This document shows positions 9,209 to 23,757 of a stretch of 64,000 nucleotides of DNA, piece by piece. Below the pieces are notes generated by a model. The model was not told where the DNA came from. It saw only the letters and a list, made by a program, of their open reading frames with translations, and ran no database searches. Made by a program: the position numbers and the translations under genes. This DNA comes from Alphaproteobacteria bacterium. GTDB lineage: Bacteria > Pseudomonadota > Alphaproteobacteria > UBA8366. Within the stretch, counting starts at the first letter, position 1, and each line of letters starts with the position of its first letter. Where the stretch lies: the NCBI GenBank assembly GCA_028281325.1, contig JANQKC010000024.1, positions 1 to 64,000 of the forward strand, in the 5' to 3' direction.

Positions 9209-9222
9209 TTGACGCAAATCAA
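9209..9222. promoter_or_regulatory. FNR/FixK-type box (transpeptidase side)
   Basis: TTGACGCAAATCAA fits TTGAY-N4-RTCAA perfectly. It lies 36-49 bases upstream of the transpeptidase ATG in the divergent region shared with the Lpp-like gene. Confidence 0.65.
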
Positions 9223-9280
9223 AGCGGGAACCGGTCGATGGAATGCCTCGATCACGCGCGGCCGGTCGCAGAAAAAAGTA

Positions 9281-9294
9281 TTGATTGAAGTCAA
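9281..9294. promoter_or_regulatory. FNR/FixK-type box (lipoprotein side)
   Basis: TTGATTGAAGTCAA fits TTGAY-N4-RTCAA perfectly. Its centre is 78 bases upstream of the Lpp-like ATG; a class II site would put the transcript start near 9329. Confidence 0.65.
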
Positions 9295-9662: not shown

Positions 9663-11252
9663 CTAACGCTTCAACGCGCGGTGCAGTCGGCGCAGGAGGG
9701 TTCGGCGCTTCTTGTCGTCGCCGGCCTTTCGAAGGCTTTCCTGAACATCGATCATGAACTGCGCGTAGTCGTTATGCCAGTCCGTGTCCTCGATGGGGCG
9801 CGTCGATAGGCGATGCGGGCCGGGGCGTTTCCGCGAGCCGCCGTCGCCCATCAGGTTCACCACGTCGTCCAATTGCGGCAAGTGAATGCGCCGGCGCGAG
9901 AGGTTTTTCCCAACCAGAATATCCCGAAGCGCCGCCCGGCTTTCGTCCTCGCCATGGGTCAGGAAAAGGCCGCGCCGCAGCGGCAGCCGCCGCATGATCC
10001 AGTCCACGAGTTCGGCTTGATCCGCGTGTCCGGAATAAACGTCGATGTCCCGGATTCGGGCTTTGACCGCGATTTCCTCGCCATGGATGCGGACGCTCTT
10101 CTTCCCTTCCCGGAGAAGGCGGCCCATCGTGCCCGGCGCTTGGTACCCGGTCAGCAGAACCGTCGAGTCGTTCCGCCAAAGGTTTCGTTTCAGGTGATGG
10201 CGAATGCGCCCGGCGTCGCACATGCCGCTGGCCGCCATGATGATGGTCCCGCCGTTGAACCGCGCGATCGCCTTGCTCTCGTCCACCGATGCCGTGAAGC
10301 GGATATTGCGACGCTGAAACGGGTTGCTGTCGGCGGGCACGTCTTCGAGGTCGGCCAAATGCGCCGCAAAGACATTCGTTGCCTGAATCGCCAAGGGCGA
10401 ATCGAGGAAGATCGGCACTTCCGGGATCGTGCCGTTATTCGTCAATTCCGAGAGATCCAGCAACAGTTCCTGCGTGCGCTCTATCGCGAAGGAGGGGATC
10501 AGCATGGTGCCGCCGCGCTGAAGCGCGTCGTTGACTTCCTTGGCCAGAATGGCCCGCCGCCGTTCCGGATCGGCATGGGTTCGGCGGCGGTTCCCATATG
10601 TCGATTCGCAAAAGACATAGTCGAAATTTTCGTTGGCGTCGGGATCGGGAAGAAACAGTTTGTGCTCCGGTCCGATGTCGCCGGAAAAAAGAAGACGAAG
10701 AATGCGCTGCTTCCGCTGTCCGGTCGCGATTTCCAATTCGATCGACGCCGACCCCAGCAGATGCCCGGCGTTCCAGAACCGCGCGCGGACCCCGTCGCCG
10801 ACATCCTCCCACCGATCGTATTCGACGCTTCGAAACCGTGTGAGGGCGGCCGCGGCGTCGTCCCGTGTGTAGATCGGGGTGACCGTCGGCCGGCCGCGCT
10901 GCCTGTTGCGGCGGTTAAGACGCTCGACCTCGGTTTCCTGGATATAGCCGCTGTCGGGCAGCATATATGTCAGAAGGTCGTGCGTGCCGGCCGTCGCGTA
11001 GATCGGACCGTCGAATCCGGCTTTCACGAGTTTCGGGACGAGACCGGCATGATCGATATGCGCATGCGTCAGGAGCACGAAATCGATCTGGTCGGCGTTG
11101 AACGGAAAGCTTCCGTAGTTGAGTTCCCGTACGGTCTTCGATCCTTGGAACAGACCGCAGTCGACAAGGAACTGGCCTCCGGGATGCGTGATCCAATAGC
11201 AAGATCCGGTAACGGTTCCCGCCGCGCCGCAAAACCCAAGATCGACGCTCAT
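9663..11252 (-). CDS. Beta-CASP metallo-beta-lactamase-fold RNA nuclease (YSH1/CPSF-like)
   Basis: 529 residues from ATG 11252, which overlaps the upstream PRPP synthetase stop as ATGA; a longer in-frame extension runs through that gene and is rejected. The metal motif is THAHIDHAG (His63, His65, Asp67, His68). The beta-CASP insert contains MLIPSFAIERTQELL and AASGMCDAGRIRHHL, and the RMMBL end has VYSGHADQAELVDW. Such enzymes cut or trim RNA. Its place in one transcript with nucleotide-salvage enzymes suggests a link to RNA turnover and nucleotide recycling, which is inference. Confidence 0.9.
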   Translation of the reverse strand: MSVDLGFCGAAGTVTGSCYWITHPGGQFLVDCGLFQGSKTVRELNYGSFPFNADQIDFVLLTHAHIDHAGLVPKLVKAGFDGPIYATAGTHDLLTYMLPDSGYIQETEVERLNRRNRQRGRPTVTPIYTRDDAAAALTRFRSVEYDRWEDVGDGVRARFWNAGHLLGSASIELEIATGQRKQRILRLLFSGDIGPEHKLFLPDPDANENFDYVFCESTYGNRRRTHADPERRRAILAKEVNDALQRGGTMLIPSFAIERTQELLLDLSELTNNGTIPEVPIFLDSPLAIQATNVFAAHLADLEDVPADSNPFQRRNIRFTASVDESKAIARFNGGTIIMAASGMCDAGRIRHHLKRNLWRNDSTVLLTGYQAPGTMGRLLREGKKSVRIHGEEIAVKARIRDIDVYSGHADQAELVDWIMRRLPLRRGLFLTHGEDESRAALRDILVGKNLSRRRIHLPQLDDVVNLMGDGGSRKRPGPHRLSTRPIEDTDWHNDYAQFMIDVQESLRKAGDDKKRRTLLRRLHRALKR

Positions 11253-12148
11253 GGCAGGAACTCGCCGGCCGCGGTCGAGAGAAGCGATGCAAGGCTGATG
11301 GCGTTCGTCGAATGCGGGACTGAATCGGTCGACCGAATACGAGCGATCCCGGCCTCTCGGAGCGCGGCATCCACTTGCCGGTCGGTGAGGTTGTGAACCA
11401 CCAGCGCTTCGATCGTTTCGGCGCCCGCCGCCGTCAGTTGTTTCGCGCATTCGATGAGCGTCGATCCGGTCGATACCATATCGTCGATCAGGATGACCGG
11501 ACGTCCGCTCGCGCGCTCGACACCGGGAATCTCCACCCGTACGTCCGTATCGCCGTGGCGCTTCTTGCCGCCCAGCAAAACCTCAAGACCGAGCGGCGCG
11601 GCAACCGCATCGACCCATTGTTCGGACTCGGCGTCGGGGCCGACCAGCACCGTGTCGGTCGAAACGCCGTCGTCGCGAAGCCGGTCGGCGAGAAGGGGCG
11701 TGGCCGACAGCGTTGCCGTCCGGGCGGTCGGGAACACCGCGGCGAGGTCGGGCGTCCGGTGCAGGTGCGGGTCGACCGTGACGATGCCGTCGAACAGGCC
11801 GTCGAGGAAGCGTCCGACGACGCGTTGGCTGACCGCTTCCCCCGGATGGAAGGCCGTATCCTGGCGCATATAGCAAAGGTAAGGCGCGACCAGAATCAAT
11901 CGGGCCGGGTTGGTTTCCCGAAGGACCGACGCGGCCAGCATGAGTTCCACCAACTTGTCGTTCGGATGGTCCAGCGACCGGTAGAGGATCGCCGTTTCCG
12001 CCATGGCGTCGATCCGCACAAGGCTCTCGCCGTCGGGGAACCGATGGACGGCGACGTCTTCGGCCGGTGCGCTCAATTCGTCCGCCAGCCGTTTGGCCGC
12101 GTCTTGCGATTCCTCGAATCCGTATACGGCGATGGGCGTTTTGGTCAT
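11249..12148 (-). CDS. prs: Ribose-phosphate pyrophosphokinase (PRPP synthetase)
   Basis: 299 residues from ATG 12148, which overlaps the upstream phosphorylase stop by ATGA. It makes PRPP from ribose 5-phosphate and ATP. Visible are the N-terminal HRFPDGES loop, [11 protein letters not shown] near the ATP site, and the PRPP-binding signature [14 protein letters not shown]. It is shorter than the housekeeping enzyme (about 310-315 residues) and embedded between a phosphorylase and a nuclease, so it is probably a second, condition-specific copy. PRPP would feed the nicotinate phosphoribosyltransferase encoded 13 kb away in the same island. Confidence 0.9.
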
Positions 12149-13686
12149 CGGCTGGGCCCGGTGTAGTTCGTCTCGGATGGGCCATTGACCGTATAGCCGC
12201 TGTCCTCCCCGGCCAGGTCCGTCGCGAACCCGAAATCGGCCGGGACGCAAGCGTGAATGCGATAGAGCGGCTCGCCCTTGCGGATGGGGTCGCCGACTTT
12301 CTTGAAGAGGTCGATGCCGGCGCCCTTGTCCAATGGCGCGCCGGCCAATCGGGCGATACGGGCGATTTGATGGCAGTCAATCGCGGCGACCGTCCCGTCC
12401 TCGGGCGAGACGACCTCTTGGACGAGATCGCCGAGCGTGTGGCGCGCCGTGTTGCGCCCCTGCGCATCGATGATCCTTTCCATGGCGTCGAAGGCCTGGC
12501 CCGAATCCAGAAGCTCCCTGGCCCGGGCATGGCCGGCGCCGCCCCGAAGTTCCGGATCGAAGTCGAGCATTCGGCCCGCAAGCAGAAGCGCGCGTTCGCG
12601 CAAGTCGGGCGGCGCGCCCGGCTCGTTACGCAAGACCGCCATCACGTCGCGCACTTCCAATACTGGCCCGACGCCGCGACCGATCGGCTGTGACCCGTCG
12701 GTCAGGATCACGTCGAGCACCAGCCCGACGCTGTCGCCGATATACTCGAACATCTTGCGCAGCCGAACGGCGTCGATATGGCTGCGAACCTTCGCGGACG
12801 GGCCGACCGGGATGTCGACGACCAAATGCGTCGACCCGGCCGCGAGTTTCTTGGAAAGGATCGAGGCGACCATCTGTTCCGGCGTATCGATCCGCAACGG
12901 CCGTTCGACGGAGATCAAGATGTCGTCCGCCGGCGATAGGTTCACGTGACCGCCCCAAACCAAACATCCCTTTTCGCGTTCGACCACCGACCGCATGTCG
13001 TGCATCGGCAGATCGACGTTGGCCAGAACCTCCATGGTGTCGGCGGTCCCCGCGGGAGAGGTGATGGCCCGTGAGGACGTCTTCGGTATGGGCAGGCCGT
13101 GCGCCGCGATAATCGGCACGAGGATCATCGAGGTGCGGTTACCGGGAATGCCGCCGATGCAGTGTTTGTCGATGATGACCGGCGCGTCCCATTCCAATTT
13201 GTTGCCGACCTTGGCCATGGAGTGCGTGAGATTCAGCATCTCGCCGGTCGTCATGAAACTCGCCGATGAAATCAGATAGGCCGCGATCTCCATCGGCGAA
13301 TATCGGTGGCTGGCGATATCGGTGATGATGGCGTCGATCTCTTCGGCCGACAGGGTGTGGCCGTTGATCTTGGACCGGATGGCTTCGAGGCTGCGCGGCG
13401 GCGTCGCTTGGGCGATGCGGACAGGGCTGCCCTCGGGAAGCCCCAGCCGCCGGAAGGCTTGCTCGCCGAGGCCGAGTTCGTCCGGGCCGATCAGCGTCGG
13501 GTCCACCACGATCACCAGATTCGCCAGAATCTGCCGGCTGTCCCCGGTGACTTCGATCTTCTTCAGGGCCTGGAAGTCTTCCGCGCGATAGGCGACGCAT
13601 TCGCGGGACAGCAAGGCAACGTTCTCAGGATAGGTATCGATGCCGAAACGGCGCAATTTAAGCAATCGGGCGTCCTCCCTCGCCAA
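12145..13686 (-). CDS. Thymidine/AMP phosphorylase family protein
   Basis: 513 residues, the size of the long archaeal-type AMP phosphorylases (about 500) rather than classical DeoA (about 440). An N-terminal extension of ~90 residues precedes the phosphorylase core ([58 protein letters not shown]). The archaeal enzymes convert a nucleoside monophosphate and phosphate into base and ribose 1,5-bisphosphate. No RuBisCO or R15P isomerase is present in the window, so the fate of the sugar is open. It is translationally coupled to prs and then the beta-CASP nuclease. Confidence 0.85.
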
Positions 13687-13781
13687 GCATGGTCATTGCG
13701 GATGAGCGGATCAAGCCGTGGATCGCCCGCGGAGTCGGCGCATCGCATGCGATACGGCCGGCATTCCTGCAAGAATCGGGT

Positions 13782-16199
13782 TCATTCGGCGGACGTCAGC
13801 TTCTTTTCGAGATCGACGATTCGCATCGTTGTCTTCAGCACGCTGTCCGGCGTTAGACTGATCGAATCGATGCCCTGCTTGACCAGGAACTCGGCGACCT
13901 CGGGATAGTCGGAGGGCGCTTGGCCGCAGATACCGGAATGACGACGGTTTCGCTTCGCGCCGTCGACCGCAAGGCGAAACATTTCGAGCACACCGGGATC
14001 GCGTTCATCGAAATTGAAGGCAACCGTCGCGGAATCGCGGTCGACGCCGAGATGGAGCTGGGTCAGGTCGTTCGACCCTATGGAAAACCCGTCGAAGAGC
14101 GCGGCGAACTCATCGATCTGAATGACGTTGTTCGGGATTTCGCACATGACATAGACTTCCAGATCGTGCTCGCCGCGCACGAGCCCATGCTTCGCCATCT
14201 CGTCGAGCACGGCTTTGCCTTCCGCCACGCGGCGGCAAAAGGGAATCATGAGTTTTACATTGACGAGGCCCATCTCCTCCCGAACCCGTTTCATCGCGCG
14301 GCACTCCAACGCGAACCCTTCGGCGTAGGCCGGGTGGGCGTACCGGGCGGCGCCCCTGAATCCGATCATCGGGTTGGCTTCGTCGGGCTCGAAGGACCGC
14401 CCACCGATCAAATGAGCGTACTCGTTTGTCTTGAAATCGGACAGGCGCACGATCACCGGTTTCGGCCAGAAAGCGGCGGCAATGGTGCCGACACCTTCGG
14501 ATAGCCGCTCGATGAAAAAATCCTCGGGCGATGCGTACCGGTGGGTCAGGGACGCGATCTCGGCGCGCGCCGCCGGATCCTCGACCCGGTCCAAATGGAC
14601 CAACGCCATGGGATGGACCTTGATGTACTCGCCGATGATGAACTCCATGCGTGCGAGTCCGACACCGTCATTCGGAACGAAGCTAGTCTTGAAGGCGATC
14701 TCCGGATTTCCGAGATTGATCATGATCTTGGTACGCGGCCGTTCGAGGTTCGACAGATCGGTCTCGTCGACTTCATGCCGAAGGGTCCCGGCGTAGACGC
14801 GCCCGGTTTCGCCCTCGGCGCAGGAGACGGTGATCGGGTCGCCGTTGACCAGGCGTTCCGTCGCGTCGGTCGTTCCCACGACGGCGGGAATCCCCAACTC
14901 GCGCGCGACGATGGCCGCATGACAGGTCCGGCCGCCGCGGTTGGTCACGACGGCGGCGGCCGTCTTCATGACGGGCTCCCAGTCGGGCGCGGTTGTGTCC
15001 GATACGAGAATCGAACCGGGCGTGAAACCGCTGAGTTCATCGGCATCCCGAATGAGCTGCACGGCGCCGCTCGCGATCGTGTCGCCGACGGCCCGCCCAC
15101 TCGCCTTGACCTCGCCTTTTTCGACAAGGCGATAACGGCGCAGTGTCGTTGAAGCGGCGCGCGAGGCGACGGTTTCGGGCCGCGCCTGCAGGATATAGAG
15201 TTCTCCGTCTATCCCGTCTTTCGCCCACTCGATATCCATCGGCATCGAACGCCCGGCCTTTTGAGAATAGTGCCGTTCGATCCGGATCGCGTATTCCGCG
15301 AGCCGCAGCGCTTCTTGATCGGAGACGCTGAAGCGGTCGCGCTCCTCCTTCGATGTCGGGATATTCCGCACCGGCTCTCGCGTTCGGCCGGTGGCGTAGA
15401 TCATTTTCAGTTTTTTTGTGCCGAGGGTGCGGCGCAGGACCGCGCGATGGCCGAGGTCGAATGTGGGCTTGTGTACGACAAGCTCATCCGGATCGACGAT
15501 CCCCTGAACGATGTTCTCGCCGAGACCATAGGACGCCGTGATCAAGACGATATCCCGGAAGCCGGTCTCCGTGTCGAGCGTGAAGGTCACGCCGCTGGTT
15601 CCGATGTCGGACCGAACCATTTTCATCACACCCACGGACAGGGCGACTTTCAGATGGTCGAAGTCCCGGTCATGGCGGTAATGGATGGCGCGATCGGTAA
15701 AGAGACTGGCAAGACACCGCCGTACCGAGTCCAACAACATCGTCTCGCCCCGAACGTTGAGGTATGTATCCTGCTGCCCGGCGAAGCTCGCGGTCGGCAG
15801 GTCTTCCGCGGTGGCGGAACTGCGGACGGCGACGCTCAGGTCTGCGCCGTACTGGTCAACCAGCCGGCCGTAAGCCGATCGGATCTGACGGCTCAGGTCC
15901 TCCGGCAGTCCGGCGCCGTATATGAGATCGCGGGCTTTCTGGCCACGCCGCGCAAGGTCGGCAACATCGTCGGGGCGCAGATCGTCCAGTATGTCCCGCA
16001 ACGCCGCCCGCCCGCCGGCCCGGTCCAACACGTCCCAATAGGCTTCCGCCGTTGTCGCGAAACCGTTCGGGATGGGAATGCCCTGCGGCGATAACTCCCG
16101 GTGCATCTCGCCCAGCGACGCATTTTTCCCGCCGACGAGGGCAATATCGTCCAGGGACAGTTCGTCGAAAAATCGGATGTAGCGCGGCGGGGATGACAC
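13782..16199 (-). CDS. ppsA: Phosphoenolpyruvate synthase
   Basis: 805 residues from GTG 16199. It interconverts pyruvate + ATP and PEP + AMP + phosphate. The N-terminal ATP-binding domain begins LVGGKNASLGEM and includes VRSSATAEDLPTASFAGQQ. The swivelling domain has NRGGRTCHAAIVAREL with the phosphorylated His427. The C-terminal PEP-binding barrel has SNDLTQLHLGVDRDS and the acid/base Cys in GICGQAPSD (about 758). It yields AMP, a possible substrate of the phosphorylase 95 bases downstream on the same strand. An FNR-type box lies 65-78 bases upstream of the start. Confidence 0.95.
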   Translation of the reverse strand: MSSPPRYIRFFDELSLDDIALVGGKNASLGEMHRELSPQGIPIPNGFATTAEAYWDVLDRAGGRAALRDILDDLRPDDVADLARRGQKARDLIYGAGLPEDLSRQIRSAYGRLVDQYGADLSVAVRSSATAEDLPTASFAGQQDTYLNVRGETMLLDSVRRCLASLFTDRAIHYRHDRDFDHLKVALSVGVMKMVRSDIGTSGVTFTLDTETGFRDIVLITASYGLGENIVQGIVDPDELVVHKPTFDLGHRAVLRRTLGTKKLKMIYATGRTREPVRNIPTSKEERDRFSVSDQEALRLAEYAIRIERHYSQKAGRSMPMDIEWAKDGIDGELYILQARPETVASRAASTTLRRYRLVEKGEVKASGRAVGDTIASGAVQLIRDADELSGFTPGSILVSDTTAPDWEPVMKTAAAVVTNRGGRTCHAAIVARELGIPAVVGTTDATERLVNGDPITVSCAEGETGRVYAGTLRHEVDETDLSNLERPRTKIMINLGNPEIAFKTSFVPNDGVGLARMEFIIGEYIKVHPMALVHLDRVEDPAARAEIASLTHRYASPEDFFIERLSEGVGTIAAAFWPKPVIVRLSDFKTNEYAHLIGGRSFEPDEANPMIGFRGAARYAHPAYAEGFALECRAMKRVREEMGLVNVKLMIPFCRRVAEGKAVLDEMAKHGLVRGEHDLEVYVMCEIPNNVIQIDEFAALFDGFSIGSNDLTQLHLGVDRDSATVAFNFDERDPGVLEMFRLAVDGAKRNRRHSGICGQAPSDYPEVAEFLVKQGIDSISLTPDSVLKTTMRIVDLEKKLTSAE

Positions 16200-16263
16200 G
16201 GTATGGATGTCCTTCGTGTTGTGAAATGGCGCGGCATTGTCGGCGTATCATCCGCCCGTCGAC

Positions 16264-16277
16264 TTGACGCAGATCAA
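16264..16277. promoter_or_regulatory. FNR/FixK-type box (ppsA side)
   Basis: TTGACGCAGATCAA fits TTGAY-N4-RTCAA. Its centre is 71 bases upstream of the ppsA GTG; class II spacing predicts a transcript start near 16229 with about 30 bases of leader. Confidence 0.65.
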
Positions 16278-16330
16278 CACAGCGCCGCCGCCGCCCGGTT
16301 ACGGCGCGCAGGGCCTTGGAGGAAAGGCGC

Positions 16331-16344
16331 TTGATGTGCGTCAA
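16331..16344. promoter_or_regulatory. FNR/FixK-type box (hibernation factor side)
   Basis: TTGATGTGCGTCAA fits TTGAY-N4-RTCAA. Its centre is 70 bases upstream of ATG 16408, almost the mirror of the ppsA box. A -10-like TAGAGT lies at 16367-16372. Confidence 0.65.
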
Positions 16345-16407
16345 CCTCTGAACGTTTCCCGTTGGGTAGAGTCGGGCTCATAAGCGGAATTGTCGGGAGA
16401 GATCGCT

Positions 16408-16980
16408 ATGTCGACGCCGATCAAGATTACCTTTCGCAATGTCGACCCGTCTCCTTCGGTAGAGGCGGACATTCGGAAACATGCCGAGAGTTTAGAGAAA
16501 TTCGACGCGCGTTTGCACTGGTGCAATGTCGCCGTCGAGGTTACCGACAAACACAAGCATCATGGCCGTCTCTACAGTATTGCGGTGAATATGGGCCTGC
16601 CGGGAAAGACACTGCACGTGACCCATGCAGGTCCGAAAAATGCGGCGCACAGCGACATCTATGTGGCCATCCGGGATGCCTTCAAGGCGGCCGCTCGCCA
16701 AATAGAGGATTATGCCCGTGTTCGACGGCAAGACGTAAAGACGCATGAAACGCCGAACCACGGGCGCGTCGCGAAGCTCTTCCCCGCAGACGGGTACGGC
16801 TTCATCGAAACCGCGTCGGGAGAAGAGGTCTATTTTCACCGCAACAGCGTGGTTAACGAACTCTTCGGCAAGCTGAAAGAGGGCGACGAGGTAAGGGTCG
16901 AGTTCGCGGTGAACGAAAGCGAGAAGGGGCCGCAGGCTACAACCGTCAAACCGATCGGCAAGCATCACCTCGTCGGATAA
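16408..16980 (+). CDS. HPF/RaiA-type ribosome hibernation factor fused to a cold-shock domain
   Basis: 190 residues; ATG 16408 has GGGAGAG 7 bases upstream, so the TTG at 16390 is rejected. Residues 1-105 form an HPF/RaiA (sigma-54 modulation) domain (ITFRNVDPSPSVEADIRKH at the start, DIYVAIRDAFKAAARQIEDY at the end). Residues 118-185 form a cold-shock OB fold with RNP motifs DGYGFI and EVYFH. The first part should bind the 30S decoding region and silence ribosomes; the second should bind RNA. It takes the place of the HPF C-terminal dimerisation domain. A primase-polymerase gene follows 7 bases later. Confidence 0.93.
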   Translation: MSTPIKITFRNVDPSPSVEADIRKHAESLEKFDARLHWCNVAVEVTDKHKHHGRLYSIAVNMGLPGKTLHVTHAGPKNAAHSDIYVAIRDAFKAAARQIEDYARVRRQDVKTHETPNHGRVAKLFPADGYGFIETASGEEVYFHRNSVVNELFGKLKEGDEVRVEFAVNESEKGPQATTVKPIGKHHLVG

Positions 16981-16987
16981 TCGTCCC

Positions 16988-17770
16988 ATGGGCCCAAACG
17001 GCATCAAGAGGGCGGCGGAACGGTATGTGGCGCGCGGATGGTCCGTTGCGCTGATCCGGCCTCGCGACAAGCGGCCGTTGGCGCCGTGGCGGGAGTACCA
17101 ACGGCGGCAGGCCGGCAAGACGGAAATTTCCCGTTGGTTCGAGCAGTGCCCCGACGCGAATATCGGCATCGTCACTGGACAGATCTCGAATCTCGTCGTG
17201 ATCGATATCGATCCACGGCACGGCGGCGGCGAGAGCCTGCATCGCCTTGAAAAACGCAATGGGCCTTTACCGCGCACCTTGACCGTCCAGACCGGAGGGG
17301 GCGGCCGCCATCTGTATTTCGCGGCGCCCGCCGATCCGATGCCTCTTCGCAGCCGCGTGGCGATGGTCGAAGGGATCGACATCCGGGCGGAGGGAGGACT
17401 TGTCGTTGCCCCGCCATCCATTCATCCGTCGGGGCGGGCGTATGTTTGGGCCCATGGCGAGGAGGCGCCGCAAGATCCGGCGGCGCTCCCGCGGTGGATG
17501 GTTTCGCTGATCCGCCGACGATCCGACCATCCCGGTCGCGGCATGCGCCATTGGCGGCGTTTGGCGGCCGATGGTGTCGGCGAAGGCGAACGCAATGCGA
17601 CGATTGCCTCGTTTGCCGGGCACCTCAATTGGTGCGGCGTCGATCCGGACGTGATCCAGGAGTTGATGTTGTGTTGGAACCGTGTCCGCGCCCGCCCGCC
17701 CTTGGACGATGCGGAAGTCGTTCGAACGGTCGAGAGCATTCGACGGACCAGCACGCGCAAACATCCTTAA
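16988..17770 (+). CDS. Prim-Pol (AEP superfamily primase-polymerase) with PriCT-like end, no helicase
   Basis: 260 residues, starting 7 bases after the hibernation factor, so almost certainly co-transcribed. Residues 10-165 are a bifunctional DNA primase/polymerase domain: metal-binding DID at 73-75 (VVIDIDPRHGGG), nucleotide-binding GGGGRH with His108, and the third acidic residue in EGIDIRAEGG (Asp131). Residues 190-252 resemble PriCT-1 (GEGERNATIASFAGHL, DDAEVVRTVESI). Such domains usually sit in plasmid or phage replication proteins with a helicase. Here there is none, nor any other phage gene. It may re-prime or fill DNA during stress. Confidence 0.88.
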   Translation: MGPNGIKRAAERYVARGWSVALIRPRDKRPLAPWREYQRRQAGKTEISRWFEQCPDANIGIVTGQISNLVVIDIDPRHGGGESLHRLEKRNGPLPRTLTVQTGGGGRHLYFAAPADPMPLRSRVAMVEGIDIRAEGGLVVAPPSIHPSGRAYVWAHGEEAPQDPAALPRWMVSLIRRRSDHPGRGMRHWRRLAADGVGEGERNATIASFAGHLNWCGVDPDVIQELMLCWNRVRARPPLDDAEVVRTVESIRRTSTRKHP

Positions 17771-17884
17771 TCCGATGGAGAGGTATGGAATCCAGTTCTG
17801 ATCATGCCGATCGTCGACGCCGCGTATGTCGACGAGAGCGGCTTAATGTCCGAATTGGTTTCGAGGACCGGGCGAAGGGCTCGT

Positions 17885-17992
17885 TTAAAGGGCGCAAGCC
17901 CGGCTCGTAAACAGCAAAATCGCGATCGCGATCAACACCGCGACGATCACGGTCAACAGGATGCTTGTGTAAAAGTGCAGTTTTCGGCTCAT
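17885..17992 (-). CDS. Possible 35-residue single-span membrane protein
   Basis: ATG at 17992, stop TAA at 17887-17885. The product starts MSRKLHFYTS, has one strongly hydrophobic stretch of about 18 residues (LTVIVAVLIAIAILLF) and ends TSRACAL. Basic residues before the span fit an N-in orientation. The ribosome site (AGAAG) is modest. It lies between the primase-polymerase and a small unknown gene. Hydrophobic composition argues that it is real; conservation is untested. Confidence 0.4.
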   Translation of the reverse strand: MSRKLHFYTSILLTVIVAVLIAIAILLFTSRACAL

Positions 17993-18045
17993 TGTCTTCT
18001 ATGCGACCCAAGGTTCATGATATCGGCGTCCGGCGGCGCGGCGCA

Positions 18046-18327
18046 TCATGGAAGTTGTTCCTCTTCGCCGTAGTCTTTTCGGGTAATCAGAATCTCGTAG
18101 ACACGCGCCGTCGCGCCGGTTAACGGTTGCTCCGATTCGTCGACAACGTCGTTTTCGGCCTCGGCCCACAAGACGGTAGCCTCCAACTCCTGGGCCGTCG
18201 GTGCCATCGCTTGAATGGCGGCAATCTTCGAGTCCTGAAGGTCGCCGACAATGCGCACGATGTCGTCATGCAACAACGGGCGGTCTTTTTCAGGTTGCCG
18301 TGTTTGGTGAGGCGTTCGCTCATTCAT
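18046..18327 (-). CDS. Uncharacterised 93-residue protein
   Basis: Not recognised. ATG 18327 (MNERTPHQTR) is chosen because an FNR-type box at 18383-18396 would sit inside the longer 18396 version. The sequence is acidic and helical (LLHDDIVRIVGDLQDSKIAA, ATVLWAEAENDVVDES) with no membrane span or signal. The box 56 bases upstream places it in the same regulon as its neighbours. Confidence 0.6.
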   Translation of the reverse strand: MNERTPHQTRQPEKDRPLLHDDIVRIVGDLQDSKIAAIQAMAPTAQELEATVLWAEAENDVVDESEQPLTGATARVYEILITRKDYGEEEQLP

Positions 18328-18382
18328 GACGGTTCGTCCCGAATGTAGTTCGTGAATTTGCCTGCCGACGGCAACCGGTGCA

Positions 18383-18396
18383 TTGATCCGTATCAT
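18383..18396. promoter_or_regulatory. FNR/FixK-type box upstream of the 93-residue protein
   Basis: TTGATCCGTATCAT matches TTGAY-N4-RTCAA at 9 of 10 positions. Its centre is 62 bases upstream of ATG 18327. Confidence 0.55.
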
Positions 18397-18425: not shown

Positions 18426-18704
18426 TTAGGGGTGATCGCGTCTAGGGGTCGACGCCGATCTTGTTGATGACGTCATCGACGCCGAAGACGCACCATGCAT
18501 CCCGTTCGGCCATTCAATGATGCCGTCGAACCCGGCAACTGCGGCGACATGTTCGAGCGCCTTTCTTTTGGCGGCTATGGTCGGGACCTCGCCTTCTAGC
18601 ACGACGGCGCCGTCTTCCAGCCGGCGTTCGATGTGATGAATCCGTGACCCGATCAGCGGCTCGCTCGCGAGCGCTGCTGCAACCTCGTCCAGAATTCGCG
18701 TCAT
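18426..18704 (-). CDS. BON-domain-type small protein, apparently frameshifted near its end
   Basis: 92 residues from ATG 18704. The N-terminal part looks like a BON fold: helix MTRILDEVAAALASEP, strand HIERRLEDGAVVLEGEVP, then TIAAKRKALEHVAAVAGFDGII. After that this frame degenerates into a Ser/Thr-rich tail. In the -1 frame the DNA from about 18513 encodes AWCVFGVDDVINKIGVDP and a stop at 18444-18442, which is what a BON domain should contain. I therefore suspect a frameshift (mutation or sequence error) near 18510-18520. BON proteins bind membranes or carry stress functions at the envelope. An FNR-type box lies upstream. Confidence 0.55.
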   Translation of the reverse strand: MTRILDEVAAALASEPLIGSRIHHIERRLEDGAVVLEGEVPTIAAKRKALEHVAAVAGFDGIIEWPNGMHGASSASMTSSTRSASTPRRDHP

Positions 18705-18765
18705 CGCCTGACCCCACTTCGTGGCCGATTGAAGTCGATCATCGACAGTGTTGAGGCTGCGCGCC

Positions 18766-18779
18766 TTGATTGAGGTCAA
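18766..18779. promoter_or_regulatory. FNR/FixK-type box upstream of the BON gene
   Basis: TTGATTGAGGTCAA fits TTGAY-N4-RTCAA perfectly. Its centre is 69 bases upstream of the BON ATG, giving a predicted leader of about 27 bases. Confidence 0.65.
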
Positions 18780-18889
18780 CCGCGATGTGTCGGTGACGGC
18801 GGCCGATGCGACCGAGCCACCTTCTGCGCGTTGCAGACCGGCGGCATTCCGCGATAGCCGCATGCAGTCGGCGCGCTGCGATCTCCTGT

Positions 18890-20359
18890 CTATCCGGGCG
18901 GCAGAACCCATTTCCCGAGGGTCAAGACGGCGATTGCGACGATCACGATGCCGATCAGGTCAAGGATCAAACCGGCGCGGAGCATGTGACGGATTTCGAC
19001 CTTGTCACTTCCGAAGACGATCGCGTTGGGCGGCGTGGCCACCGGCAACATGAACCCCAGCGTGGCGAACAACGCAACGGGCAGCGCAAAGAGCGATACC
19101 GGTTCGCCGATGGTGAGCGCCGCCGCCCCGGCGACCGGCAGGAAGACGGCCGCCATCGCCGTGTTGCTCGCCAACTCTCCGACAAAGACCATGAGGAGTC
19201 CGATCGCGAGCAGCAGCAGAAACAAGGGCAACACGTAGAAACCGCTTAGTTGAGCGCCGATCCAGTCGGCCAAACCCGTGTCGCCCATCGCACCCGCCAG
19301 GGCCAAACCGCCGCCGAACAGGATCAACACGTCCCACCGGATGGCGGCGGCCTCGCGCCAGGTGAGCAAAAAACGGCCGTGCCGCAGGTCGACCGGCAAC
19401 ACGAAAAGCAGGAGTGCCCCGATGACCGCAATCCCGGCGTCGGATAGGTGAAGCCACGGCATCGCCGAGGTGATCAGCGGCCGTGTAATCCAGAGGACCG
19501 CGACGCTCAGCATGACGCCGGCGATATAGCGCTCGCCCTTCGAGATGGGTGGAAGGTCCGCAAGCCGCTCGCCGATTCGCGCCGTTGACTGCTCCGACTC
19601 CGCCCCGCCGACCGGGAACATCAGCCGGGACAGGACAAACCAGGCCAGCGGCAACATGACCAGGACCAAGGGAACGCCGATCGTCATCCAGCGGATGAAA
19701 CTGACTTCGATCCCATGGGCCTCGGACATGAAGGCGACAAAAAGGGCGTTGGGCGGTGTTCCGATAATTGTCCCCATGCCGCCGATCGTCGCCGCATACG
19801 CAATGCCCAGCAACAAGGCCGGCGCGATCGCGGCGGCGCTTTCTTTCCGGTGTTCCGAATAGGCTGCCACTATGGAGAGACCGATCGGCAGCATGACCAT
19901 CGCCGTCGCCGTGTTGCTGACCCACATGCTGAGGAACGCCGTAACCCCCATGATCCCGGCGATCACGCGGCGCGGACTGGACCCTGCATGCCGCAAGACG
20001 TTGAGCGCCAAACGCTTGTCCAATCCCCAAACGTGCATGGCGCGGGCCAGGAGAAACCCGCCGAGGAAAAGGAATATCAAGGGATGCGCGTAGGACGGCG
20101 TGGTATCTTCGATGCTGCGGATGCCGAATATCGGAAACAGGAACACCGGCAGCATCGCCGTCACGGCCAGCGGCAACGCTTCCGTCATCCACCAGATTGC
20201 CATCCAGAGCGCCACCGCCGCGGTCCACCACCCCTGCGGCGGCAGACCGTCGGGCGTCGGGCTCACCCCGATGGCGACGGCGGTCAGTGGACCGGCAATC
20301 AATCCGATCAAGCGATGGCGGGGAAATTCAGAACCTTGACGGTTATCCAATTGAACCAT
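18890..20359 (-). CDS. DASS/SLC13 family sodium-coupled dicarboxylate/sulfate transporter
   Basis: 489 residues with about 12 membrane spans. The first conserved feature is WWMTEALPLAVTAMLP. The first SNT substrate motif is VSNTATAMVMLP and the second is ELASNTAMAAVFLP, both diagnostic for the DASS family, with PPNA motifs after each (GTPPNALF, ATPPNAIVFG). It should import succinate, malate or a similar anion with sodium. It lies downstream of an unknown protein on the same strand and could feed the PEP synthase node under low oxygen, though the substrate is inferred from family only. Confidence 0.92.
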   Translation of the reverse strand: MVQLDNRQGSEFPRHRLIGLIAGPLTAVAIGVSPTPDGLPPQGWWTAAVALWMAIWWMTEALPLAVTAMLPVFLFPIFGIRSIEDTTPSYAHPLIFLFLGGFLLARAMHVWGLDKRLALNVLRHAGSSPRRVIAGIMGVTAFLSMWVSNTATAMVMLPIGLSIVAAYSEHRKESAAAIAPALLLGIAYAATIGGMGTIIGTPPNALFVAFMSEAHGIEVSFIRWMTIGVPLVLVMLPLAWFVLSRLMFPVGGAESEQSTARIGERLADLPPISKGERYIAGVMLSVAVLWITRPLITSAMPWLHLSDAGIAVIGALLLFVLPVDLRHGRFLLTWREAAAIRWDVLILFGGGLALAGAMGDTGLADWIGAQLSGFYVLPLFLLLLAIGLLMVFVGELASNTAMAAVFLPVAGAAALTIGEPVSLFALPVALFATLGFMLPVATPPNAIVFGSDKVEIRHMLRAGLILDLIGIVIVAIAVLTLGKWVLPPG

Positions 20360-20492: not shown

Positions 20493-21056
20493 CTAAGGCG
20501 TTGGGGGAATGCTCACCGCCGCCGGCCGTTCCGTCAGCGTGGCGTTACTGTCCAACCACGCCTCCGCTTTGGACCGGATGTCCGCGATCTCTTTCGCGAT
20601 CAGCGCCAGGTTCAGTTCATCTTCCAGCAGGGTGAGCACATCGACGGTCGGATCGTAATGCCGCAGGAAAAGGCTCAGGTCGTCTTCGAAGGCGTCCCGG
20701 TCGCCGATGTTGGAGTCGAGAACCCTTGTTCCTTCGCCATATAGCGTGAGGCCCGTCGCCAACCGTGCGTCGTACCCTTCCAGCATGCCGCGAATGGCCT
20801 CGTCCTCGATCTGGTATGTGCGCGGGACCTTTAGCAGGTCGGCGATCGTCCGGTCGGCCGCGTGCGCTGCCAACGCTTGCGACCGAAGCAGCCGCGCCGC
20901 CATCGCACAGTTTCCCAGCATGGCATGCGCATAGAAAAACGTTTCGACCGCATCCTGCCCGCCGGTCTTCTCGATCTTGCCGTAGGCGAATTCAGCGAAC
21001 CGGCAGAATGTAGCAAGCTCCCGAACGCCGAGTTCCAGTATGAGTGCGTCGCGCAT
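20493..21056 (-). CDS. Uncharacterised 187-residue protein
   Basis: Not recognised. It is a soluble, largely helical protein (LGVRELATFCRFAEFAYGKIEK, FEDDLSLFLRHYDPTVDVL) without signal or spans. It precedes the DASS transporter on the same strand (133-base gap) and is divergent from carbamate kinase. A degenerate FNR-like site lies between the two. Confidence 0.65.
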   Translation of the reverse strand: MRDALILELGVRELATFCRFAEFAYGKIEKTGGQDAVETFFYAHAMLGNCAMAARLLRSQALAAHAADRTIADLLKVPRTYQIEDEAIRGMLEGYDARLATGLTLYGEGTRVLDSNIGDRDAFEDDLSLFLRHYDPTVDVLTLLEDELNLALIAKEIADIRSKAEAWLDSNATLTERPAAVSIPPTP

Positions 21057-21290: not shown

Positions 21291-22226
21291 ATGGATCAGG
21301 GCAACGCGTCGCAAACAGTCGTCGCCGCTCTCGGCGGCAACGCGCTGCTCAAAAGGGATGAAACGCCGAGCGCGGAAAACCAGCGTCGCAATGCTCAGAC
21401 GGCAGCGGCGGTTTTGTCCAGATTGAGCGGCGGGCGGCGGTTGGCGGTCACCCACGGTAACGGACCGCAAGTCGGCCTTCTCGCGCTCCAAAGCCCGGGC
21501 GATCCGCTCGACATTCTCGACGCCGAATCGGAAGGGCAGATCGGTTATCTTATCGAACAGGAATTGCGAAGCGCCCTCGGTTCAAGCCGTCCGTGCGTGA
21601 CGCTGCTGACGCAGGTGGCGGTCGATGCCGCGGACCCTGCCTTCGGCAGTCCCACGAAACCGATTGGGCCGTTTTACGACAAGGGCGCATCGGAGGATTT
21701 GGCGCGGTCGCGCGGCTGGACATTCGTCCGGGTCGGCGACCAGTATCGACGCTGCGTCGCCTCTCCCAAACCCAAGCGGATATTGCCGATGGACGTTGTC
21801 CGGATGCTCGTCGAGCAAGGCGTCGTCACGGTCTGCGCCGGTGGCGGCGGCATCCCGGTCGTCGCATCGGCGAACGGCCGGCTCCGCGGCGTCGAGGCGG
21901 TTATCGACAAGGACCTCTCCAGCGCCTTGCTCGCGAAGGAATTGGGAGCCGCGGTGTTGCTGATTCTCACCGATGTAGATGGCGTGTATGTCCGTTGGGG
22001 CCAGCCGGACGCGCGGCTGATCCGACGTGTTTCGCCGGAGGCGATGCGCCGGTTTTCCTTCGCGGCGGGATCGATGGGCCCGAAGGTGGACGCCGCCTGC
22101 GATTTCGTTGCGGCAACGGGCGGTGTCGCGGCGATCGGCGCCATGGCGGATGCGCCGGCGATCCTCGCGGGTCAGGCGGGCACGCGCATCACGGCGGATG
22201 CGACCGGTATCGACTATCGGGATTAG
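21291..22226 (+). CDS. arcC: Carbamate kinase
   Basis: 311 residues from ATG 21291, with GGAGG at 21279-21283; longer in-frame readings to 20862 are rejected. Motifs: VVAALGGNALL, AVTHGNGPQVGLLALQ, TQVAVDAADPAF, PTKPIGPFY, AGGGGIPV and the ATP-site LTDVDGVYV. It makes ATP from carbamoyl phosphate and ADP, releasing ammonia and CO2. No arginine deiminase or ornithine carbamoyltransferase is nearby, so the carbamoyl phosphate source is elsewhere. Its 3' end overlaps the convergent next gene by 38 bases. Confidence 0.95.
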   Translation: MDQGNASQTVVAALGGNALLKRDETPSAENQRRNAQTAAAVLSRLSGGRRLAVTHGNGPQVGLLALQSPGDPLDILDAESEGQIGYLIEQELRSALGSSRPCVTLLTQVAVDAADPAFGSPTKPIGPFYDKGASEDLARSRGWTFVRVGDQYRRCVASPKPKRILPMDVVRMLVEQGVVTVCAGGGGIPVVASANGRLRGVEAVIDKDLSSALLAKELGAAVLLILTDVDGVYVRWGQPDARLIRRVSPEAMRRFSFAAGSMGPKVDAACDFVAATGGVAAIGAMADAPAILAGQAGTRITADATGIDYRD

Positions 22227-23565
22227 ACCAGGCCACGGCCTGCAGGAATTCCACGACCCGGCCTTCGAGACCCGGCGAATCGACCTCGGCGAAGGAATAG
22301 CGCGCGCGAACGACCGGTACGGAAAGATCGATCAGCGCGGACAGGTCGCAAGGCGTGCCGGACACCACGACATCCGGCGCGACCGTCTCGATCGTCTTGC
22401 GTAAGGATTCGACCTCTGAGGATCCATAGCCGACCGCCGGCAGCACGGCCCCGATATGGGGATAGGTGCGGTACACGTCGGCGATCTCGCCGACCGCCGC
22501 TTCCCGCGGATCGATGATCTCGGCCGCGCCGGCTTCGGTCGCCGCGACATATCCGGCGCCGTATGGCATGCCGCCATGGGTGATGGTCGGGCCGTCGTCC
22601 ACCACCAGGGCGCGGCGGTTCATGACAAGGCTGGGATCGTCGAGGGTGACCGGCGACGCGCCGCGGATAACGATTGCGTTTTTGTTGATTAGGCGGATCC
22701 GGTCGATAGTCTGCCGAACGGTCTCGTCGGGAACCGATTGGCTCTTCGCGACAAGCGCCACATCGGCTATCCGCAACACGGTCTCGCCCGGATGATGCGT
22801 TGCTTCCTGGCCCGGACGCAAGGGATCGACGAGTGCGATATGCAGGTCCGGCGCAAAGAAGGGAAAGTCGTTGTTCCCGCCGTCCCAAAGAATGACATCC
22901 GCCTCCTTTTCCGCTTGGGTCAGAATCTCGCGATAGTCGACGCCGGCAAACACGACGTTGCCGACGGCCAGATGCGGCTCGTATTCCTCGCGTTCTTCGA
23001 TGGTGCAGTCGGCGGCATCGAGATCCCGGCTTTCGGCGAAACGCTGGGCGGTCTGGCGTTCGAGATCTCCATACGGCATGGGGTGTCGGACCACGGCGAC
23101 GGCAAAACCGTGGTCCTTCAGTAGCCGGGAAAGCCATCGCGTTACTTGCGACTTTCCGCATCCGGTCCGCACGGCCGAGACGGCGATCACGGGTTTCTTC
23201 GGCCGCAGCATTGTTCGCGTCGGCCCGAGAAAGGAAAAGTCGGCGCCCGTCGCAAGGGCCGCCGAGGCGCGGTGCATGACGTCCTCATGTCTGAGGTCGC
23301 TATACGCGAAAACCACATCGGTCACGTCGTGTTCGCGGCAAAGCGCGGCAAGATCCTCTTCCGGGACGATCGGGATGCCCGAAGGATACCGTGGTCCGGC
23401 GAGCGCCGGCGGATAGCGGCGGCTTGCAATATTGGGAATCTGGGTCGCCGTGAAGGCGACGACCGTATCGTTGGGGCTGTCCCGGTAGACCATATTGAAA
23501 TTATGAAAATCACGACCGGCCGCACCCATGATGATGATTCGATTCGGCTGTCCGTCTCGCGGCAT
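22189..23565 (-). CDS. Cyclic 2,3-diphosphoglycerate synthetase-like P-loop protein
   Basis: 458 residues from ATG 23565, preceded by AGGAGAGG. The N-terminal 130 residues form a Rossmann-like domain (RIIIMGAAGRDFHNFN, VAFTATQIPNI). A P-loop follows in TGCGKSQVTRW, then DVILWDGGNNDFPFF in the Walker B region. Archaeal homologues cyclise 2,3-diphosphoglycerate, a thermo-osmolyte and energy reserve; bacterial members are uncharacterised to my knowledge and often lie beside carbamate kinase or Usp genes. Here it is convergent with carbamate kinase. The annotation is by family resemblance only; the product is not established. Confidence 0.8.
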   Translation of the reverse strand: MPRDGQPNRIIIMGAAGRDFHNFNMVYRDSPNDTVVAFTATQIPNIASRRYPPALAGPRYPSGIPIVPEEDLAALCREHDVTDVVFAYSDLRHEDVMHRASAALATGADFSFLGPTRTMLRPKKPVIAVSAVRTGCGKSQVTRWLSRLLKDHGFAVAVVRHPMPYGDLERQTAQRFAESRDLDAADCTIEEREEYEPHLAVGNVVFAGVDYREILTQAEKEADVILWDGGNNDFPFFAPDLHIALVDPLRPGQEATHHPGETVLRIADVALVAKSQSVPDETVRQTIDRIRLINKNAIVIRGASPVTLDDPSLVMNRRALVVDDGPTITHGGMPYGAGYVAATEAGAAEIIDPREAAVGEIADVYRTYPHIGAVLPAVGYGSSEVESLRKTIETVAPDVVVSGTPCDLSALIDLSVPVVRARYSFAEVDSPGLEGRVVEFLQAVAWSNPDSRYRSHPP

Positions 23566-23686
23566 TGGTCGCCTCTCCTTGGTTTCGTCAACGCTGTTCG
23601 TGTCCCCTGCGCATGAAGGCGCAACCGCCTGCGAACGTTCTAGCTGTACCCCAATAACGGTATCGCTGAAAAAGAGTCGGCGCTGG

Positions 23687-23700
23687 CTGAGATAAATCAA
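23687..23700. promoter_or_regulatory. Degenerate FNR/FixK-like site before the Usp gene
   Basis: CTGAGATAAATCAA matches TTGAY-N4-RTCAA at 8 of 10 positions. Its centre is 64 bases upstream of ATG 23758, the same spacing as the perfect boxes, which is the main reason to list it. Confidence 0.35.
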
Positions 23701-23757
23701 TTCGCCTATCCGCAACGTATGTATCGTGCAGGGGAAAACTTCGTTGGGATTCGATCA

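Follow-up and report, generated by a model that had tools for sequence, protein, structure and literature searches.

In the 64-kb stretch of DNA analysed here (the window), a gene for the ribosome hibernation factor HPFcold is followed after seven bases by a gene for a stand-alone primase-polymerase (Prim-Pol). The two are predicted to form an FNR-activated operon of an oxygen-limitation survival island, in which the Prim-Pol would fill gaps or re-prime with ribonucleotides; we give this reading a probability of about 0.5. Sequence evidence supports the operon layout, the intact Prim-Pol and the recurrence of its clade near genes for HPFcold, RNA repair and chaperones. The biochemical role, gap filling or re-priming with ribonucleotides, is probable by analogy with other primase-polymerases.

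The HPFcold and Prim-Pol genes

16408..16980, + strand: HPFcold, ribosome hibernation factor with S30AE and C-terminal cold-shock domains, 190 aa (PF02482, PF00313, phmmer)
16988..17770, + strand: stand-alone Prim-Pol + PriCT-1 protein, 260 aa (PF09250, 1.6e-44; PF08708, 3.7e-9)
17204..17212, + strand: codons of AEP motif I DxD (D73, D75), invariant in 65/65 rows
17309..17311, + strand: codon of AEP motif II histidine H108 (sxH), invariant in 65/65 rows
17378..17380, + strand: codon of AEP motif III aspartate D131 (hD), invariant in 65/65 rows
17567..17746, + strand: PriCT-1 helical domain (Pfam match, residues 194-253)

The original prediction of an HPF/cold-shock fusion with a Prim-Pol seven bases on is confirmed by Pfam, phmmer and the coordinates, as the HPFcold stop codon occupies 16978-16980 and the Prim-Pol ATG begins at 16988. 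Both domains of the hibernation factor lie over their Pfam cut-offs (Ribosomal_S30AE, PF02482, 2.6e-13; CSD, PF00313, 8.3e-13), and its best solved relative is Coxiella HPFcold chain 9t0z_9 (phmmer, 2e-36 over residues 1-177). The structure of HPFcold from Coxiella burnetii (CBU_0020, PDB 9T0Z) was described in 2026; the protein occupies the decoding region of the 30S subunit while its cold-shock domain wraps the anti-Shine-Dalgarno end of the 16S rRNA (PMC13392368). The window protein shares the two-domain architecture and aligns with it end to end. The window gene differs in sitting 3' of an FNR-type box and in being followed by a Prim-Pol gene.

HPFcold and Prim-Pol are both known families. 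The original observation named no earlier description of their pairing, and in the open-access literature we found neither a paper pairing a primase-polymerase with ribosome hibernation nor one placing the stand-alone Prim-Pol clade in an FNR setting.

The AEP motifs hhhDhD, sxH and hD are all present in the window Prim-Pol, and K28, D73, D75, H108, D131 and H146 are invariant in all 65 rows of the clade alignment. The metal and nucleotide motifs are therefore intact, as predicted, and active-site loss is ruled out for this protein and the other rows of that alignment. In 12 clade pairs dN/dS was 0.16-0.31 (Nei-Gojobori), well below 1; judged by these substitution rates, the clade is under purifying selection. 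A Pfam scan placed PF09250 and PF08708 alone over the cut-off, with no helicase, HTH or winged-helix fusion, in agreement with the predicted absence of a helicase, and the protein had no match among the PADLOC defence systems. Ten clade sequences were used to build an AlphaFold2 model (pLDDT 84.7); it has the AEP fold, its top structural match being the pRN1 ORF904 primase-polymerase (1rni; Z 14.1 over 173 residues). Residues 185-256 of the model resemble PriX (4wyh, Z 7.2), a score within the range of common arrangements.

With the plasmid and phage Prim-Pol/PriCT-1 AEPs (pRN1 ORF904; the PrimPol-PV1 supergroup, PMC5862659), the window protein thus shares fold, motifs and PriCT-1 domain, but it differs in its length of 260 aa, its lack of helicase, HTH and WH domains, its placement in a separate, virus-free clade and its location in a survival island. 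In mycobacteria, Prim-PolC closes short gaps with ribonucleotides as dNTPs drop in stationary phase (PMC5663958). Like the window protein, Prim-PolC and the LigD polymerase domain have the AEP fold, and they are stand-alone or repair polymerases that use rNTPs for gap filling in cells that are not growing (PMC5663958); their structural similarity to the window model is, however, distant (Z 6-7, a level that common arrangements also reach), and the window genome has no Ku. A further bacterial Prim-Pol, Ppol of Thermus thermophilus, affects genome integrity when lost (PMC9751324). Unlike the window gene, Ppol is carried by an ICE (ICETh2), and the abstract states no link to oxygen regulation or hibernation for it (PMC9751324).

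Predicted FNR control and the surrounding island

16331..16344, + strand: FNR/FixK-type box TTGATGTGCGTCAA for HPFcold-Prim-Pol (pattern scan)
16367..16372, + strand: -10-like hexamer TAGAGT, 22 bases past the box, whose centre is at -41.5 of the inferred start (sequence, spacing peak)
16264..16277, - strand: FNR/FixK-type box TTGATCTGCGTCAA for the divergent PEP-synthase operon (pattern scan)
16236..16241, - strand: -10-like hexamer GACAAT, 22 bases past the box (sequence, spacing profile)
13782..16199, - strand: phosphoenolpyruvate synthase, first gene of the divergent operon (NCBIfam NF005057, 1138 bits)
12145..13686, - strand: thymidine/AMP-phosphorylase family protein (NCBIfam NF003338, 4.4e-204)
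11249..12250, - strand: ribose-phosphate diphosphokinase (PRPP synthase; NCBIfam NF005537, above cut-off)
9663..11450, - strand: beta-CASP metallo-beta-lactamase ribonuclease-like protein (Pfam Beta-Casp, 2.4e-37; RMMBL, 1.6e-11)

The window holds six TTGAYNNNNRTCAA sites where 0.2 would be expected, and every one lies at 9.2-18.8 kb. The boxes at 16264 and 16331 share the intergenic region between the PEP-synthase and HPFcold genes, each directed toward the -10-like hexamer of its own gene with a spacer of 22 and each with one mismatch to the strict TTGAT-N4-ATCAA consensus. When 156 box directions were pooled, taken from the window and from related loci, 17 good -10 hexamers fell at spacer 22, a sharp peak above the 0-5 counted at other spacings; this matches the class II arrangement with which FNR is known to work. 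The 5.1-Mb window genome contains 45 boxes against 3 for a reversed control pattern, and it encodes an FNR-like CRP/FNR protein with the N-terminal Cys cluster CAACTVRDLSIC, the recognition helix motif ESVSR and confirmed CRP family domains. Box number, class II spacing and the regulator together support the FNR control originally proposed, and FNR-type control of HPFcold-Prim-Pol is put forward as a prediction. A simple scan of 16150-18100 for sigma-70 promoters and for terminators gave nothing of use, with no promoters and three terminator-like sites (2.0 expected), and an Rfam search of 9-24 kb returned no RNA elements.

Further FNR-type boxes lie elsewhere in this part of the window. Two are found at 9209-9294, flanked by a YkuD (L,D-transpeptidase) gene on one side and a small lipoprotein-like ORF on the other, and an exact one at 12367-12380 falls within the thymidine/AMP-phosphorylase gene and precedes the minus-strand PRPP-synthase gene. 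Two more, at 18383-18396 (one mismatch) and 18766-18779 (exact), are near a small gene of unknown function (18046-18396) and a BON-domain gene (18426-18911).

The divergent operon (9663-16199, minus strand) looks like one that salvages RNA and nucleotides when oxygen is limiting. Further along the window are genes for carbamate kinase, nicotinate phosphoribosyltransferase, a CBS-domain protein and, recognised by eye, a universal-stress-like protein. The region as a whole has the look of an island for survival and nucleotide salvage at low oxygen. The Prim-Pol had been noted to come without phage genes, and none was recognised when the gene products of the window were read by eye. The proteins encoded at 22189-23715 and 20493-21056, both on the minus strand, have no Pfam or NCBIfam match; in L099 and L112 a relative of the former sits next to a carbamate kinase gene, just as the former does in the window.

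The island may have moved horizontally, since its phosphorylase is 81% identical to that of a genome from a different family of the order (G028:C272, L200), against 45-48% to most others, and the same-genus genome G001 has no such phosphorylase. Neither Ku (PF02735) nor RtcB is present in the window genome, which is 98.9% complete. Neither NHEJ nor RtcB is therefore a required partner there: an NHEJ (LigD/Ku) partner for the Prim-Pol is ruled out by the absence of Ku, which leaves no LigD-style partner evident, and RtcB is ruled out as its gene is missing.

Distribution of the pair and its neighbours

The claimed pairing holds at the level of genomes and gene clusters but not as a strict gene pair. 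Among ten genomes of the same family, none has a Prim-Pol of the clade and none a full HPFcold; one (G007) has only a distant 660-aa Prim-Pol homologue. In two genomes of the same order (G030, G016), Prim-Pol lies beside a radical-SAM (AmrS-like) gene and HPFcold is on another contig. Strict conservation of the operon is therefore rejected, as the examined close relatives that bear both genes have them apart.

In a 385-genome sample of the class, by comparison, HPFcold is carried by 8/8 genomes with a full clade member (at least 48% identity) and by 37/377 others (Fisher p 1.9e-8, uncorrected for relatedness, three of the eight clade genomes being from one family). Both genes are also present, far apart, in one genome of a phylum sample (G585). 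Most genomes with HPFcold, however, have no Prim-Pol, which counts against a shared survival regulon.

An alignment-based scan of 84,980 species genomes yielded 80 Prim-Pol loci, about 60 of the stand-alone type. Genes were called in these loci by a GC-by-codon-position score, as longest-ORF calls took antisense frames in GC-rich DNA. A two-domain HPFcold lies within 10 kb of Prim-Pol in 15 of the ~60 loci (L069 included; the match in L122 is weak), and by our estimate, for a genome with one or two copies, a random 20-kb stretch would hold HPFcold in ~0.5-1% of cases. Direct adjacency is confined to the window, L069 (Prim-Pol then HPFcold, same strand, 68 bases) and L091 of the Burkholderiales (divergent, with an FNR box between), which again counts against the survival-regulon reading. 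Mapped on the tree, the neighbour label requires at least 11 changes, of which well-supported branches force at least 6; as the label changes repeatedly, the association is not one inherited block.

Genes for RNA repair recur near Prim-Pol, with RtcB in eight loci, archease in seven and RtcA in four, all identities being confirmed by Pfam. In Elioraea tepidiphila (L126, 8016-10756), archease, RtcB and Prim-Pol are arranged like an operon, the successive gaps measuring ~12 and ~8 bases. In L087 and L089 archease, RtcB and HPFcold are 5' of Prim-Pol on the same strand. RtcA (RNA 3'-phosphate cyclase) is directly 3' of Prim-Pol, 46 bases away in L086, L111 and L114 and 232 bases away in L104. Other recurring neighbours are phosphoribosyltransferase, Hsp20, GroEL, DUF3775 and nicotinate phosphoribosyltransferase. 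The DUF3775 protein, of unknown function, is repeatedly found beside Prim-Pol and HPFcold (L069, L085, L087, L089, L106, L124, L125).

FNR boxes number 51 in 295 kb of loci with HPFcold (0.3 expected) and 18 in 701 kb of loci without it (1.4 expected). Prim-Pol has a box no more than ~125 bases from its ORF start in L088, L091, L110, L113 and L117, and in L117 the box overlaps the start of the long ORF; in L088, L110, L113 and L117 the box is directly 5' of Prim-Pol with HPFcold not nearby.

Many clade members have other contexts, such as AmrS radical SAM or RuvX-GatCAB genes, and these too count against the survival-regulon reading. In the Geminicoccaceae and HR40 (L072, L073, L074), Prim-Pol neighbours RuvX, and L073 and L074 also have GatB close by; the RuvX-GatCAB neighbourhood is a housekeeping context. 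Prim-Pol adjoins an AmrS-like radical-SAM gene in L033, L034 and L070.

Origin and proposed role of the Prim-Pol clade

The stand-alone Prim-Pols form one side of a branch with SH-aLRT 95 (a quick method, without bootstrap). The outgroup of that tree comprised 13 IMG/VR sequences and 21 other rows (plasmid, mobile-type and other bacterial Prim-Pols), and long-branch phage rows were left out of it; in an earlier tree that contained them, they fell outside the clade. Most clade members come from Proteobacteria; Desulfobacterales, Myxococcota and Rokuibacteriota are represented, by assignment, with a single MAG row each. The 13 IMG/VR relatives lie in ORFs of 481-919 residues, against 260 for the window protein. 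A prophage origin in relatives would have spoken against the DNA-maintenance role in dormant cells that was originally suggested, but no virus sequence lies inside the clade in trees including the IMG/VR and phage rows, and a Prim-Pol from a prophage-like locus (G667) groups with plasmid sequences outside it. A prophage source for the window gene is accordingly judged unlikely. Two tyrosine-integrase probes matched no clade locus. IS elements are near some clade loci (L070, L079), and the clade Prim-Pol of Rhizobium daejeonense is plasmid-borne.

According to Kazlauskas and co-workers, PriCT domains are exclusive to mobile-element AEPs, and PriCT-bearing AEPs occur nearly exclusively in mobile elements (PMC5862659), a description that counts against the survival-regulon reading. 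The window Prim-Pol may have been captured from a mobile element and still be active, travelling with horizontally exchanged survival islands but having no specific link to hibernation. Besides the mobile character of the wider family, the lack of HPFcold and Prim-Pol in same-genus and most same-family genomes, the 81% phosphorylase match to another family, the differing gene contexts of clade members and the Rhizobium plasmid are all in keeping with such a history. It is nevertheless rather unlikely given the invariant catalytic residues with dN/dS well below 1, the FNR boxes directly 5' of Prim-Pol where HPFcold is not nearby, the housekeeping context in Geminicoccaceae and the co-occurrence with HPFcold even in genomes where the two genes are far apart.

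Eukaryotic PrimPol lets replication resume beyond lesions or stalled forks, and the window enzyme may likewise serve re-priming instead of gap filling, restarting replication on exit from anoxia with PriCT-1 used for primer initiation. The PriCT-1 domain, proposed for primer synthesis (PMC5862659), is retained in the window protein, L126 and the aligned clade, and the closest structure is that of the pRN1 primase-polymerase. However, no helicase or SSB partner was recognised in the neighbourhood, and FNR control predicts expression in anoxia and not at re-aeration, so that re-priming alone is unlikely. The adjoining RNA-repair genes of relatives, in operon-like order with archease and RtcB in E. 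tepidiphila and 46 bases from RtcA in three loci, raise the further idea that Prim-Pol acts with RtcA and RtcB-archease on RNA-ended or RNA-containing substrates. This is very improbable, as the window genome has no RtcB and the AEPs closest in structure are primase-polymerases of DNA. We rank gap filling or re-priming in cells that do not grow first, a mobile-element primase carried along with the island second and action on RNA-containing ends last.

Under the preferred reading of an FNR-activated survival operon, falling oxygen would lead FNR to switch on HPFcold and Prim-Pol. HPFcold, like its Coxiella homologue, would park 70S ribosomes and shield the anti-Shine-Dalgarno end of the 16S rRNA, while Prim-Pol would fill short DNA gaps or re-prime stalled forks, leaving ribonucleotide-containing patches while dNTPs are low, and the chromosome would be intact once growth resumes. 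The two proteins would share a regulatory programme and not a complex. Chains can be begun or lengthened from NTPs by other, distant AEPs, and rNTP use by the window enzyme is assumed on that basis. The recurrence of its relatives in survival gene clusters suggests a putative role for clade Prim-Pols in looking after DNA in non-growing cells. More tentatively, and with greater doubt, the clade may be a cellular, non-mobile proteobacterial Prim-Pol/PriCT-1 branch dedicated to oxygen-limitation dormancy, where it would work together with ribosome hibernation and the repair of RNA ends (RtcA, RtcB-archease) so that DNA and RNA stay repairable with ribonucleotides in the absence of Ku/LigD.

Bacterial archaeo-eukaryotic-type primases bearing PriCT have so far been treated as replication genes of mobile elements. 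If the reading is true, a chromosomal, oxygen-controlled clade tied to hibernation and RNA repair would give PriCT-bearing primases a cellular role. HPFcold, structurally known so far from Coxiella, would gain a link with free-living Proteobacteria and their predicted FNR regulon, and how non-growing bacteria mend DNA with scarce dNTPs and no Ku would become testable.
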